Shown piece after piece: positions 20,255 through 24,507 of a stretch of DNA of 27,403 nucleotides. Position 1 is the first letter of the stretch; each line of letters starts with the position of its first letter. Source of the stretch: a virus; the IMG/VR virus record IMGVR_UViG_3300030106_003574, positions 10,717 through 38,119 of that record, one strand, 5' to 3'. The translations under genes were made by a program, and so were the position numbers. The notes beneath the pieces were generated by a model that saw only the letters and a program-made list of their open reading frames with translations, had not been told where the DNA came from and searched no databases.

Positions 20255-20272
20255 TTACTCTCTCTTTGCATT

Positions 20273-20280
20273 ATAAATAT
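20273..20280 (-). promoter_or_regulatory. Intergenic ATATTTAT motif upstream of the 1005-aa fibre
   Basis: The coding strand reads TAATATTTATAATG. Its TAA is the stop of the vestigial KTIEELEK frame, not of the preceding gene. It ends 18 bases before the ATG. Confidence 0.45.
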
Positions 20281-20306
20281 TACTTTTCTAATTCTTCAAT
20301 TGTTTT
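20280..20306 (-). pseudogene. Vestige of an S74-fibre C-terminus (K-T-I-E-E-L-E-K-stop)
   Basis: Immediately after the TAA of the G2 fibre, in the same frame, nine codons read KTIEELEK-stop. The neighbouring S74 fibre ends QKIEELEK-stop, followed by the same TAATATTTATA junction. This is best read as what is left of an S74-type chaperone after a G2-type C-terminus replaced it. Readthrough of the TAA would append these eight residues. The stretch is too short to exclude chance alone, but the match in frame, codons and junction supports it. Confidence 0.6.
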
Positions 20307-23300
20307 TTATTTTACTAACCAAAGTTGTATTGAGTCAGACACATCTTTCATTTTAATCCAACGACTACCCGTCGCCTGACCTGTTCTAACTTTTATTTTA
20401 CCCATTAAACCGATAGTGTCCCATTCTCCTCTACCTCTTCTTGTTGTGTAATCTCTTGTCTCATCATAGTCATCTGCTAGTTGAGACTCTTCCTTATTGT
20501 AATAGTGTGCATTTGATGGAATAGAACCACCATATGGAACACCACGTTCACTTGAACCACTTGGTATATTACTTAGGAAACTACCTGTGTAAGCGATTTC
20601 TGTTCGAAAGGTTTTTTGTACTACCTCACCATTACCACGTGTGAAATCATAAGACCAACTAACCATTGGTATCAATTTTGGTATTTTTCTGTCCCATTCA
20701 TCCGTTTTCCATTTACCTTGCCAGGCTAATGGATTATCACCTATGACACCAGGTCTTGCTGAAACAACACCAATCGGTTCTTCACTACCTGAAGCGACTC
20801 TTATCTTATCACCACTTGACCCAAACACCACGCTATAACCAACTCTGTCTTCCTCGCCTGTGTTACCATCCTCCCACTCAAACATCTCAGCGTAGTCATA
20901 ACCAGTTATACTTGTCGAACCATCGGCGTGTATATCACCATCCTCATCGATAAGAACCACAGCTGGTGAAGCATCACCCCTCCTAACCCTAAATATGTAA
21001 GCAGTTCCATTCGAATTTATGTTGCCGGCATTCGTTCCTGACAAAGCATAAGCGAAGAACTGAAATCCCTTATCAACTGCAGTTCCATTAGATGGGGTGT
21101 CATATACTGTGCTAAAGTTAGATAAAGCTAAACCTCTCTCCCCCTCAGAAAAACCTTGAAGGTTAAGACCACCCTCAGCATTCGAATACTTTCGCATATC
21201 GACAAATGTATCATTTGCAACTAAAGACGTAAAACTGTGTGCTACATCACTATTCTTTATTGTGATATGGCCTGTATCATTAGCACCATGATTTACAGTC
21301 AATCGACCATCAGGATTGTCATCACCGATGCCGACATCTCCTGTATTCGCGATTCTGATTGTCTCAGCGGCATTAACGACAAATCTCATACTGTTATCAT
21401 TGTGGTCGTAATCTACCTGACCGATTTCACTAGAACCAGCATCACCAAAGTTTAGAATTGAGTTTCTATTTGCATCACTCGCTTTTATAAGTACATTAGC
21501 GTTAACTGTATCATCTTCGAATACTGCTATTGCATGTCCACCCCCATTACCCTTTACATGAAGTAAAGCATCATTAACATTAGCAGTTGTGCCGATACCG
21601 ACTTGGCCTTCTTGAGTAATTCGCATTAGTTCTGCATAAGCACTTCCATTATAGTTTTGAAATACAAAATCACCTTGACCATTTGAACCATCTTGTGCAT
21701 ACCCAAAAAAGGCTTCCATAGAACCGTGACTTCTAAATCTTATTAGTCCTGCAGAGTCATTGGCATTTGGAAAATCTATCGTAATAGCTGAATTTATGTG
21801 GTTTCCAGAAGCGGGAGTATAGGTATTAGTTCCTCCAGTATGTACGCCTAAACTTGAATACTGAATCTGACCATCTTTGATTGATATACCACCCGCTTGA
21901 GAACTACCTGATGCGGTTGTTATGACTCCAGTTGATTTAATACGCATTCGTTCAGTTACACCACTACCACCATTTGTGTAAAATAATATATTTCCTTTTG
22001 ATGTGCTATCATCTCTCTGCGTCTGTATTAATGCAGTATTGTTATCGTGGTCATAAAAAGCAATAGAACCAACCGCTACATCATTAGCAATACTATGACC
22101 TTGTAGTTGTAAAACGCCATAATTATTAGCTCCCGCGTCATCTACTGAGGATATTAAAAGATGTCCTCTATCATTACCAAAATCTTGTGGGAATGACGTA
22201 GCCTTAATAGCAACTCTACCATCAGATTCAATACGCATTCTTTCAGCTACAGTTCCTGCCGCGGCTGTAGCAAAACCAATCCTACCATCATCCTTATTAC
22301 TTGTATCCGTACCTGTAAACATACTGATTCGTGCTACGTTTGTCTCATTCCAATTAGCATCTATGAAAGCAATATTGTCCGCCGCTGATGAAATATTTGA
22401 ATCAAATACTAAATTATTTCTTGTGTTTCCTGTGCTTTTTAGGTAGATACCCTCCGTACTAGCATCCGTGTGTATGTGTAGTCCACCAGATACGGGTGTA
22501 GCTGTGCCGATGCCCACATTTCCAGAAGTATCTAACGTTGCTCTTATAGTTCCATCTGTAACTAATCTTAATGGATGGTCTGTTTGTGTACCAACATAAC
22601 CTTGGTCATCTAAAGCTCTTAGCATAGTAGTTACAGTATTCGTTGTATCTGTGACTGCTATTTGTGGGTTAGTAGCATCTGCAACTTCTAACTTATATGC
22701 TGGATTATCTGTGCCGATACCCACGTTGCCATTAGTTAAATTAAAAGTCATCATAGTACCAGCATCACCATCACCACTATCTGCATCATTTCTACCCTCA
22801 AAGAAAAACGCATCACCACCACCAGCTAATCTAAAAATCTTAGAATCAGTACCACCACCAGTATCCTTAAAGGTTAGTGTTGGTGAGGTGCTACTAGCTA
22901 TTGTTAATTGACCTGTTGGACTATCTGTGCCGATACCTACGTCGCCACCCATAAATGTAGTTACACCAGTGCCTTTGGTAACGATTGAACCAAACGAACC
23001 TGTTGAAGTAACCGAACCACTAATCGTGTTACCTTTAAAATCATGAACGTCATCACTACTGTTGCCGAATTGGGTTGAACCGCTTGTGAATAAAATTGAT
23101 GCGGATTCAAACTCGGTGTGAACCTCTTGCGCTGTCAACGTTCCACCGACCGCAAAATCACCAGTTATTGTACCAGCCGCGAATGTCGGCGATGCATCCG
23201 TGGTTAGGTCTTGATTTACGTTTGAGTTCTCCTCCACCGTTAAAGTTTTAGATGCCCCACTAAAAGTTATCGTACCATCGTTTCCATCGCCTACGGTGAG

Positions 23301-24143
23301 ACTTTCATTTAAGGTTATGGTTCTTGCCGCACCTACTGCATTTACCGTAACATTATTGTTTTGTGTTGTGAATGTGCCTGCTGTAGTTAAATCCCCACCA
23401 AGAGTCAAAGTATTTGAACCAAATAGCGCATTAGCTTGGTGTGTCTGTAACCTACCAATCGAACCTGTTGAGATTGATGAAGCGCTGATACTACGATTAA
23501 ATGTAGCATCACCTGCCTCTGACATATCTAATGTTAATGCGGTTATCGTTGCTGAATCGTCAACACCTTTTAAAAGTATATCGTTATTATTACTTATGGA
23601 TTTTATTACTAAGTCAGAAGATACTCTACTTAATCTACCAAATTCTGTTCCGTCATCTTTTAATTTGATATCCGCACCATTAGCATCAAATATAATATCC
23701 CCTTCCACATCAAGTGTTAAATCTCCTGATGATAAATCTATTTCTGTTCCGTCAATAGTAATGTTATCAACTGTTACTCCACCATCAGCATCTAAACTTG
23801 TCGCTGAAGTAACTCCTAATGTAGACTGACCTGGCACCACTAAAGAACCAAACGAACCAGTTGATGTTGATGAACCACTAATTTGATTTGAGCCACCACC
23901 TTGAAATGAACCACTTATATCGGCAGCAAGTTGTGCTGAACTTGATACGAGTGTTTTTGAGGTACTACCTGCTTCTACGTCGGAAACTCTCGTGGAGAAA
24001 GAAGAACTTACCGTAGTAAATGACCCACTTATAACATTACCTAAACTAGAAGATATATCCGCCGCTATTATGCTACCATCCTCAATATTTGTGGTGGTTA
24101 CTGTTATTGGGTCTGCACTCTGTGGTTTACCGATGTAAGGCAT
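20307..24143 (-). CDS. Tail fibre with VGIGT repeats and G2-type self-cleaving chaperone (1278 aa)
   Basis: Starts MPYIGKPQSADPITVTTTNI. It then has SGS/SSAQ linkers, a beta region with GDIIFDANGADIKLKDDGTE common in marine phage fibres, the shared module (about 315-385), and six or so GNVGIGT-type repeats. The C-terminus (about 1070-1278) is different from its neighbours: GYDYAEMFEWEDGN, DRVGYSVVF, EPIGVVSARPGVIGDNP, then AWQGKWKTDEWDRKIP. This matches the peptidase G2 chaperone of phi29/GA-1 neck appendages (Asp/Glu autocleavage). It closes with IKMKDVSDSIQLWLVK and has no final coiled coil. Its ATG overlaps by one base the stop of the 112-aa gene (TAATG), with TTGGAG upstream. A vestige of an S74 end follows the stop. 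Confidence 0.82.
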   Translation of the reverse strand: MPYIGKPQSADPITVTTTNIEDGSIIAADISSSLGNVISGSFTTVSSSFSTRVSDVEAGSTSKTLVSSSAQLAADISGSFQGGGSNQISGSSTSTGSFGSLVVPGQSTLGVTSATSLDADGGVTVDNITIDGTEIDLSSGDLTLDVEGDIIFDANGADIKLKDDGTEFGRLSRVSSDLVIKSISNNNDILLKGVDDSATITALTLDMSEAGDATFNRSISASSISTGSIGRLQTHQANALFGSNTLTLGGDLTTAGTFTTQNNNVTVNAVGAARTITLNESLTVGDGNDGTITFSGASKTLTVEENSNVNQDLTTDASPTFAAGTITGDFAVGGTLTAQEVHTEFESASILFTSGSTQFGNSSDDVHDFKGNTISGSVTSTGSFGSIVTKGTGVTTFMGGDVGIGTDSPTGQLTIASSTSPTLTFKDTGGGTDSKIFRLAGGGDAFFFEGRNDADSGDGDAGTMMTFNLTNGNVGIGTDNPAYKLEVADATNPQIAVTDTTNTVTTMLRALDDQGYVGTQTDHPLRLVTDGTIRATLDTSGNVGIGTATPVSGGLHIHTDASTEGIYLKSTGNTRNNLVFDSNISSAADNIAFIDANWNETNVARISMFTGTDTSNKDDGRIGFATAAAGTVAERMRIESDGRVAIKATSFPQDFGNDRGHLLISSVDDAGANNYGVLQLQGHSIANDVAVGSIAFYDHDNNTALIQTQRDDSTSKGNILFYTNGGSGVTERMRIKSTGVITTASGSSQAGGISIKDGQIQYSSLGVHTGGTNTYTPASGNHINSAITIDFPNANDSAGLIRFRSHGSMEAFFGYAQDGSNGQGDFVFQNYNGSAYAELMRITQEGQVGIGTTANVNDALLHVKGNGGGHAIAVFEDDTVNANVLIKASDANRNSILNFGDAGSSEIGQVDYDHNDNSMRFVVNAAETIRIANTGDVGIGDDNPDGRLTVNHGANDTGHITIKNSDVAHSFTSLVANDTFVDMRKYSNAEGGLNLQGFSEGERGLALSNFSTVYDTPSNGTAVDKGFQFFAYALSGTNAGNINSNGTAYIFRVRRGDASPAVVLIDEDGDIHADGSTSITGYDYAEMFEWEDGNTGEEDRVGYSVVFGSSGDKIRVASGSEEPIGVVSARPGVIGDNPLAWQGKWKTDEWDRKIPKLIPMVSWSYDFTRGNGEVVQKTFRTEIAYTGSFLSNIPSGSSERGVPYGGSIPSNAHYYNKEESQLADDYDETRDYTTRRGRGEWDTIGLMGKIKVRTGQATGSRWIKMKDVSDSIQLWLVK
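22952..23009 (-). repeat. 58-base identical repeat, copy 2
   Basis: Identical to 19333-19390. It encodes the start of the shared module region in this fibre. Confidence 0.9.
22989..23192 (-). repeat. Shared fibre module, copy in the G2 fibre
   Basis: Encodes ITGDFAVGGTLTAQEVHTEF and the following FTSGSTQFGNSSDDVHDFKG block. Confidence 0.8.
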
Positions 24144-24481
24144 TAAGTAATCTCCAATACGCTAACCACGACATCTAATGACGTTGCCGTGTCGCTTTGA
24201 AATTGTAAAACATCTGCGGCTTGTAAAACGACCTTGTTACCCGCCATGACCTCAACACTTGAACCAACTGGCACAGGCGCAGTCTTGACAACGAAGACAT
24301 CATCTTGACCTGCCGCACTTCCATCCTTTTTCAATTTTATTGAACTTCCGATTGGTGATGAGTGTGTGTTAGCCATACTAGCACCGAGCACGATTGATGT
24401 TGTTGAGCTCGGACAGGTATAAACACCTACGAGAGTTGTTCCGATACTACCACTTGTTATTGATTTAAATGTGTTTGCCAT
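24143..24481 (-). CDS. Small conserved virion-type protein (112 aa)
   Basis: A compact beta-sandwich-looking protein: VGVYTCPSSTTSIVLGASMA, then FVVKTAPVPVGSSVEVMAGN, VVLQAADVLQFQSD and a final LDVVVSVLEIT. The pattern 'VKTAPVPVGSS...GxKVVLxAxDxLxxxSDTAxSLDVVxSVLEI' recurs, in my recollection, in small proteins beside marine phage fibres and is usually listed as structural or hypothetical. Between two fibre genes, it may be a fibre tip, adaptor or decoration. ATG has AAGGAT upstream, and its stop overlaps the next fibre start. Confidence 0.75.
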   Translation of the reverse strand: MANTFKSITSGSIGTTLVGVYTCPSSTTSIVLGASMANTHSSPIGSSIKLKKDGSAAGQDDVFVVKTAPVPVGSSVEVMAGNKVVLQAADVLQFQSDTATSLDVVVSVLEIT

Positions 24482-24499: not shown

Positions 24500-24507
24500 A
24501 TAAATAT
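24500..24507 (-). promoter_or_regulatory. Intergenic ATATTTAT motif upstream of the 112-aa gene
   Basis: The coding strand reads TAATATTTATAG, with TAA the stop of the first fibre. It ends 18 bases before the ATG. Confidence 0.45.

Follow-up and report, generated by a model that had tools for sequence, protein, structure and literature searches.

A chaperone remnant in a fibre cassette

Why does the coding sequence for the tail of one fibre chaperone lie directly behind the stop codon of a fibre gene that ends in another? We analysed a window of 27,403 nt, part of a 38,119-base virus record (IMG/VR IMGVR_UViG_3300030106_003574). The record belongs to a marine myophage with its genes on the minus strand, and its tail sheath is nearest, among annotated phages, to that of Microcystis phage Mel-JY01 (46% identity). 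The long fibre genes form a cassette that extends from 13727 to the right end of the window. The gene in question, P0001 (20307..24143, minus strand, 1278 aa), starts MPYIGKPQ and has a Peptidase_G2 end at WLVK-TAA. Directly upstream of it is a 112-aa gene beginning MANTFK (24143..24481, minus strand), which we used as a synteny marker for the same position in relatives. The next fibre after P0001, P0002 (17237..20254, minus strand, 1005 aa), is S74-ended with the tail QQKIEELEK-TAA-TATTTATA, and P0003 (13727..17212, minus strand, 1161 aa) is S74-ended with the tail RMEALEK-TAA.

The P0001 C-terminus matches Peptidase_G2 (PF11962) at 76.8 bits in Pfam, where the curated cut-off is 25, and at 77.3 bits in a search of its own genome. 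The domain covers 20379..20978 on the minus strand (aa 1056-1255 of P0001) and carries the D-[YF]-A-E motif as D-Y-A-E-M-F-E, within a DYAEMFEW stretch that is invariant among 17 aligned G2 ends. As the 3GQH chain (phi29 gp12 chaperone, 3GQH/3SUC) begins DFAEYFE, cleavage of P0001 is predicted before DYAEMFE. The C-termini of P0002 and P0003 match Peptidase_S74 (PF13884) at 61.4 and 43.0 bits in Pfam (cut-off 22). Both contain the S-D-x-R-x-K motif, which has an accepted role in S74 (SDIRLK and SDRRIK), and their terminal coils end IEELEK and MEALEK. A role for this motif in S74 is also given in PMC4690869, which further describes the S74 chaperone as terminating in a coiled-coil helix and as being cleaved off once folding is done.

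The remnant behind the G2 stop codon

The G2 stop codon of P0001, TAA, occupies 20307-20309 on the minus strand. It is followed in frame by the 24-nt sequence AAAACAATTGAAGAATTAGAAAAG (20283..20306, minus strand), which encodes K-T-I-E-E-L-E-K, then by the former S74 stop TAA that closes the remnant (20280..20282, minus strand), and then by the junction element TATTTATA (20272..20279, minus strand), which precedes most fibre genes of this phage family. An earlier, sequence-only reading of the locus had described this order of codons, stop and junction, a matching junction on the adjacent S74 fibre and a 27-base scar. All three descriptions are exact: the elements lie in frame after the G2 TAA on the minus strand, P0002 ends as described, and 24 nt of codons plus a stop codon give 27 bases.

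The remnant peptide matches the C-terminal coiled-coil of S74-ended fibres of the same phage family and corresponds to the end of the S74 helix. When 20280-20306 was tested for membership of Peptidase_S74, the chaperone domain was absent and only the last 8 tail codons were present; the segment is a fossil, not a family member. It corresponds to the end of the type of C-terminal coil found in the phage T5 L-shaped fibre pb1 and endosialidase S74 domains (PMC4690869), but unlike these it consists of the coil end only, with the chaperone body and active site missing. Such S74-tail homology, in register with the TATTTAT junction and outside an S74 ORF, is what we refer to as a scar.

In fixed register with the junction, the remnant is identical at 22/24 positions to the best S74 tails in a set of 24 distinct tails (23 from relatives plus P0002's own). 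Against P0002's tail alone, 4/24 bases differ. In the family as a whole, judged from the 24 distinct tails, an S74 tail of this sequence followed by the junction is the rule. The 24 nt immediately upstream of the remnant match the tails at no more than 11/24, so the similarity does not extend past the G2 stop codon. Allowing up to 3 mismatches, the pattern GAAGAATTAGAAAAATAA is present 3 times in comparison to 0.13 expected, namely at the two S74 ends and the scar. Taken without its junction context, the short scar reaches a profile E of only 0.054 across all loci compared.

The fibre upstream of P0001 (24507-27401), in which no chaperone domain was detected, ends ...IIALSIALG-TAA-TATTTATA and has no scar, and provides a natural control for a non-S74 end.

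Homology partners on either side of the stop codon

By blastn, the homology partner changes sharply at the G2 stop. To the left, P0001 matches G2 fibres of unrelated phages (L022, and L017 at 72% up to the stop). From the last base of the stop rightward, the matches are S74 ends of the family (L156, L161, L155 and others; 84% over 63 nt, E 2.8e-9).

We found close relatives by searching with the neighbouring genes. In L124 and L125, the gene after the 112-aa MANTFK gene resembles P0001 at its start (82% DNA identity through the 5′ end) and has an S74 end. The fibre directly behind the scar in the window begins MPYLGRP, and in L124 and L125 the gene preceding the MPYLGRP fibre ends in S74. Body modules of P0001 also match S74-ended fibres in L072 (86% over 263 nt) and in L125. 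Both the position and the body modules recur with S74 ends, so that one of the checks proposed in the sequence-only reading supports it. The contig of the closest relative, L122, ends before the end of the gene; the immediate S74-ended ancestor was not found among the relatives, all of which are fragments, and a query with the S74-end protein returned no confirmed loci. A search for a donor of the distal shaft gave short weak matches only (two fell in fibres whose ends are S74-like) and did not identify the donor.

The normal end of this G2 subfamily is WLV[KR]-stop or the similar YLV[KR]-stop. No coil-like peptide lies behind any of 44 other G2 ends, in any frame, within 300 bases (0/44), and the remnant is not part of the G2 gene. 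The sequence-only reading had also proposed looking for the scar behind other G2 ends; its absence there is what one would expect had the recipient, rather than the donor, supplied it. PF11962 was not found in 19 records of relatives, all fragments, so G2 looks rare in this phage family.

The 24 bases are thus very probably the last eight codons of an earlier S74 fibre, the distal end of which was replaced by a G2-ended part. Under this explanation, an S74-ended fibre would formerly have stood at the position of P0001, and recombination would have exchanged its distal part (shaft end and S74 chaperone) for one ending in Peptidase_G2. On the right, the join would lie where the incoming stop codon meets the last coiled-coil heptad of the S74 tail being replaced, so that all that survived of the old end was its terminal coil codons and stop, along with the TATTTATA junction that precedes the next gene. 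Such a join, which leaves both a stop codon and the next gene's leader intact, may have been selected for that reason. We infer that phage recombination, homologous or microhomology-mediated, made it at short A-rich homology. The part lost was presumably a complete, working S74 domain, and the G2 domain would now carry out the folding and self-cleavage that were formerly S74's.

Of the two wordings offered earlier, that the G2 end was inserted into an S74 end or that it replaced one, replacement of the distal gene end describes these data better than insertion.

Further scars in related contigs

When all loci were scanned for S74 tails lying outside an S74 reading frame, three extra scars emerged, in L071, L170 and L070, where S74-tail remnants of ~25-37 bases lie behind three other non-S74 ends. 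In L071, the fibre end ...VGCTYHCG-TAG is followed by ATATTTATACGCAAATAG and then the remnant. In L170, ~80 bases separate the fibre end ...SCVLYCG-TAA from the remnant. L070 has a third type of end, then a 92-aa ORF, and then a ~37-base remnant just before the next gene. None of these three remnants is in frame with its fibre ORF; in all four, including that of the window, the reading frame is open to the old stop. The presence of such leftovers in three relatives points to recurrent exchange rather than accident. End replacements would thus recur in the family, with the junction repeatedly falling within the same ~25-37-base S74 tail.

Other candidates from the scan were rejected. Pattern matches in L160 and L165 look like unrelated sequence. 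In L166, two junctions flank an orphan 50-aa S74 tail, which is accompanied by tandem fibre-start fragments (MAYIGREPTINGE; reverse strand 346-600). The fragments are apparently remnants of deleted fibre genes, and we regard the locus as a deletion remnant, not an end swap.

L071 and its sister contig L072 are 99.8% identical over 8955 bp and have different fibre ends: the L072 fibre is S74-ended, and that of L071 has a different domain plus the scar. The identity starts at L071:1368 / L072:1763, 25 bases before the S74 stop codon of L072, and to the left of this block the two share a 207-nt body segment at 83%. With sister contigs this close, the swap is recent. Between the L071 remnant and the L072 tail there are 3 mismatches in 25 positions, all in the left part of the remnant, in comparison to ~17 differences across the remaining ~8930 bases (p about 1.5e-5 for the excess in the remnant). 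The left 14 nt of the remnant are identical to the KRIKELEN-type tails found in six other contigs, and its right part is identical to L072. Most likely, going by these matches, the left part arrived with the foreign end and the crossover fell within the remnant. In that case this scar of mixed ancestry took a later crossover within itself and served as a homology arm.

Other marine phages also have the domain that ends the L071 fibre, with no remnant following it. At L071:846-1346 and in L177-L193 it forms a conserved fibre C-terminal domain of many marine phages, ending [YH]CG and bearing the motif GYGMKQDDD. It has no match in Pfam, PHROGs or PDB. Profile comparison with G2 gave a weak 20% probability over 38 columns, and its GVVS segment weakly resembles G2; a structure model (pLDDT 56.5) was too poor for use. 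The domain is possibly another intramolecular chaperone or tip.

In L170 (reverse strand ~245-345), the S74 remnant is fused to a 32-aa frame (MRKKLNQWADAGKILNFMVILGFAIALKKSKN), which shares bases with the fibre stop (TAATG) and may represent the beginning of a small membrane-protein gene contributed by the donor.

Alternative explanations

The strongest competitor is that a G2-ended fibre gene, or most of one, replaced an S74-ended gene outright, with no domain swap on a kept body. We regard this as possible but rather doubtful. It would account for the P0001 shaft at ~aa 750-1060, which is without a close match, for L070, where an entire end and the 92-aa ORF precede the scar, and for L125, which has three genes where the window has one. 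On the other hand, P0001 is typical of the family in its 5′ end and in several body modules, at 82-86% DNA identity to S74-ended fibres, and L071 and L072 keep their common body segment despite having different ends. The proposed replacement of an S74 end by a G2 end is supported; an exchange of the chaperone or distal part only looks the same here as one of the whole gene.

It is very unlikely that the remnant has been retained for a function, either as a C-terminal extension made by readthrough or as a leader of the next gene. The in-frame position behind the TAA in the window and the open frame of four of four remnants would suit such a role. However, none of the other three shares the reading frame of its fibre ORF, and one frame match in four is the chance level. 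At 24507, moreover, the next gene follows TATTTATA without any coil. In solved relatives the G2 fragment begins at D-[YF]-A-E (3GQH), and an extension would therefore be shed. The suggestion that readthrough of the TAA adds a coiled-coil tip is thus not supported, because the other scars are out of frame and the tip would sit on the part expected to be released by self-cleavage.

An assembly chimera, in which a G2-ended fibre from one phage was spliced to another phage's S74 tail and next gene, seems just as improbable. These are metagenomic contigs with repetitive fibres, and no independent contig covers the window junction: a DNA search of phage records with the junction and an exact junction pattern in IMG/VR (which was too strict) gave no match, and no second contig with the same G2-plus-scar junction appeared after the IMG/VR pattern was loosened, among records from which near-identical ones may be absent. 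The window junction consequently rests on one metagenomic assembly. Against a chimera, the differences from the P0002 tail indicate that the remnant is not a copy of it, and the join falls exactly at the stop codon between sequences that share only short A-rich microhomology. Four different scars, in contigs from different samples, would require four separate chimeras, all at one and the same point.

Chance similarity within AT-rich intergenic DNA can practically be dismissed: although the genome is AT-rich and the peptide is rich in lysine and glutamate, only 2 of 20,000 random 24-mers from the window, a sample that itself includes the scar and real tails, reach 22/24 (~1 in 10,000 or rarer), TAATATTTATA is adjacent in the expected register, and three further scars exist in relatives.

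Relation to known fibre exchange systems

That related appendages may carry either chaperone is already known. Among Bacillus phage appendages, GA-1 (3GUD) has an S74/endosialidase-type chaperone and phi29 (3SUC) a G2-type one (PMC4690869). There, alternation was inferred between phages, whereas here a base-level remnant of the outgoing chaperone remains behind the gene of the incoming one. Smug et al. 2023 (PMC10684548) similarly found that intramolecular chaperones and other fibre domains are shuffled among proteins, with recent events detectable; their analysis used protein profiles and was agnostic on the DNA event, in contrast to the breakpoint, outgoing module and reused scar described here. 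In the Pectobacterium tailocin carotovoricin (PMC13195805), fibre loci are likewise exchanged by homologous recombination in conserved flanking blocks, but these blocks are far longer and an invertase is involved, whereas the right flank here is the last coil codons and the gene junction. What is new is the nucleotide scars, their recurrence and their reuse; within the part of the literature covered, we found no paper that reports one chaperone's nucleotide scar behind a second chaperone.

Protein comparisons have made the modular exchange of fibre ends familiar, but the DNA event is seldom caught. The window gives the outgoing module, the incoming module and the breakpoint at base resolution, in a case where one chaperone class stands in for another. 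Because the tail and junction are conserved among fibres, one scar can serve as right-hand homology for later exchanges. The suggested rule is that the S74 coil end and the gene junction behind it form a preferred exchange boundary. We hypothesize, tentatively and at somewhat less than an even chance, that the last ~25 bases of S74 plus TATTTATA are a standing recombination boundary, in front of which C-terminal modules are swapped, the scar being reused in the next swap. If true, the modules swapped would include S74, G2, the unnamed [YH]CG-ending domain and others, and the fibre array would be a cassette system with a history readable from its scars. Scars would also be a cheap way to spot past swaps in metagenomes and to infer the earlier fibre end.

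The TATTTAT element

On the gene strand of the window, 9/11 TATTTAT occurrences are intergenic, most of them 24-47 nt before a start codon. The intergenic copies, on the minus strand, are at 24506, 20279, 17236, 13063, 12803, 12184, 9584, 7883 and 524. The element is strongly enriched in relatives, on the gene strand only (16 versus 3.7 expected in L125 and 16 versus 2.8 in L075). TATTTAT is the reverse complement of T4's TATAAATA and may be a late promoter or processing site of this phage family.
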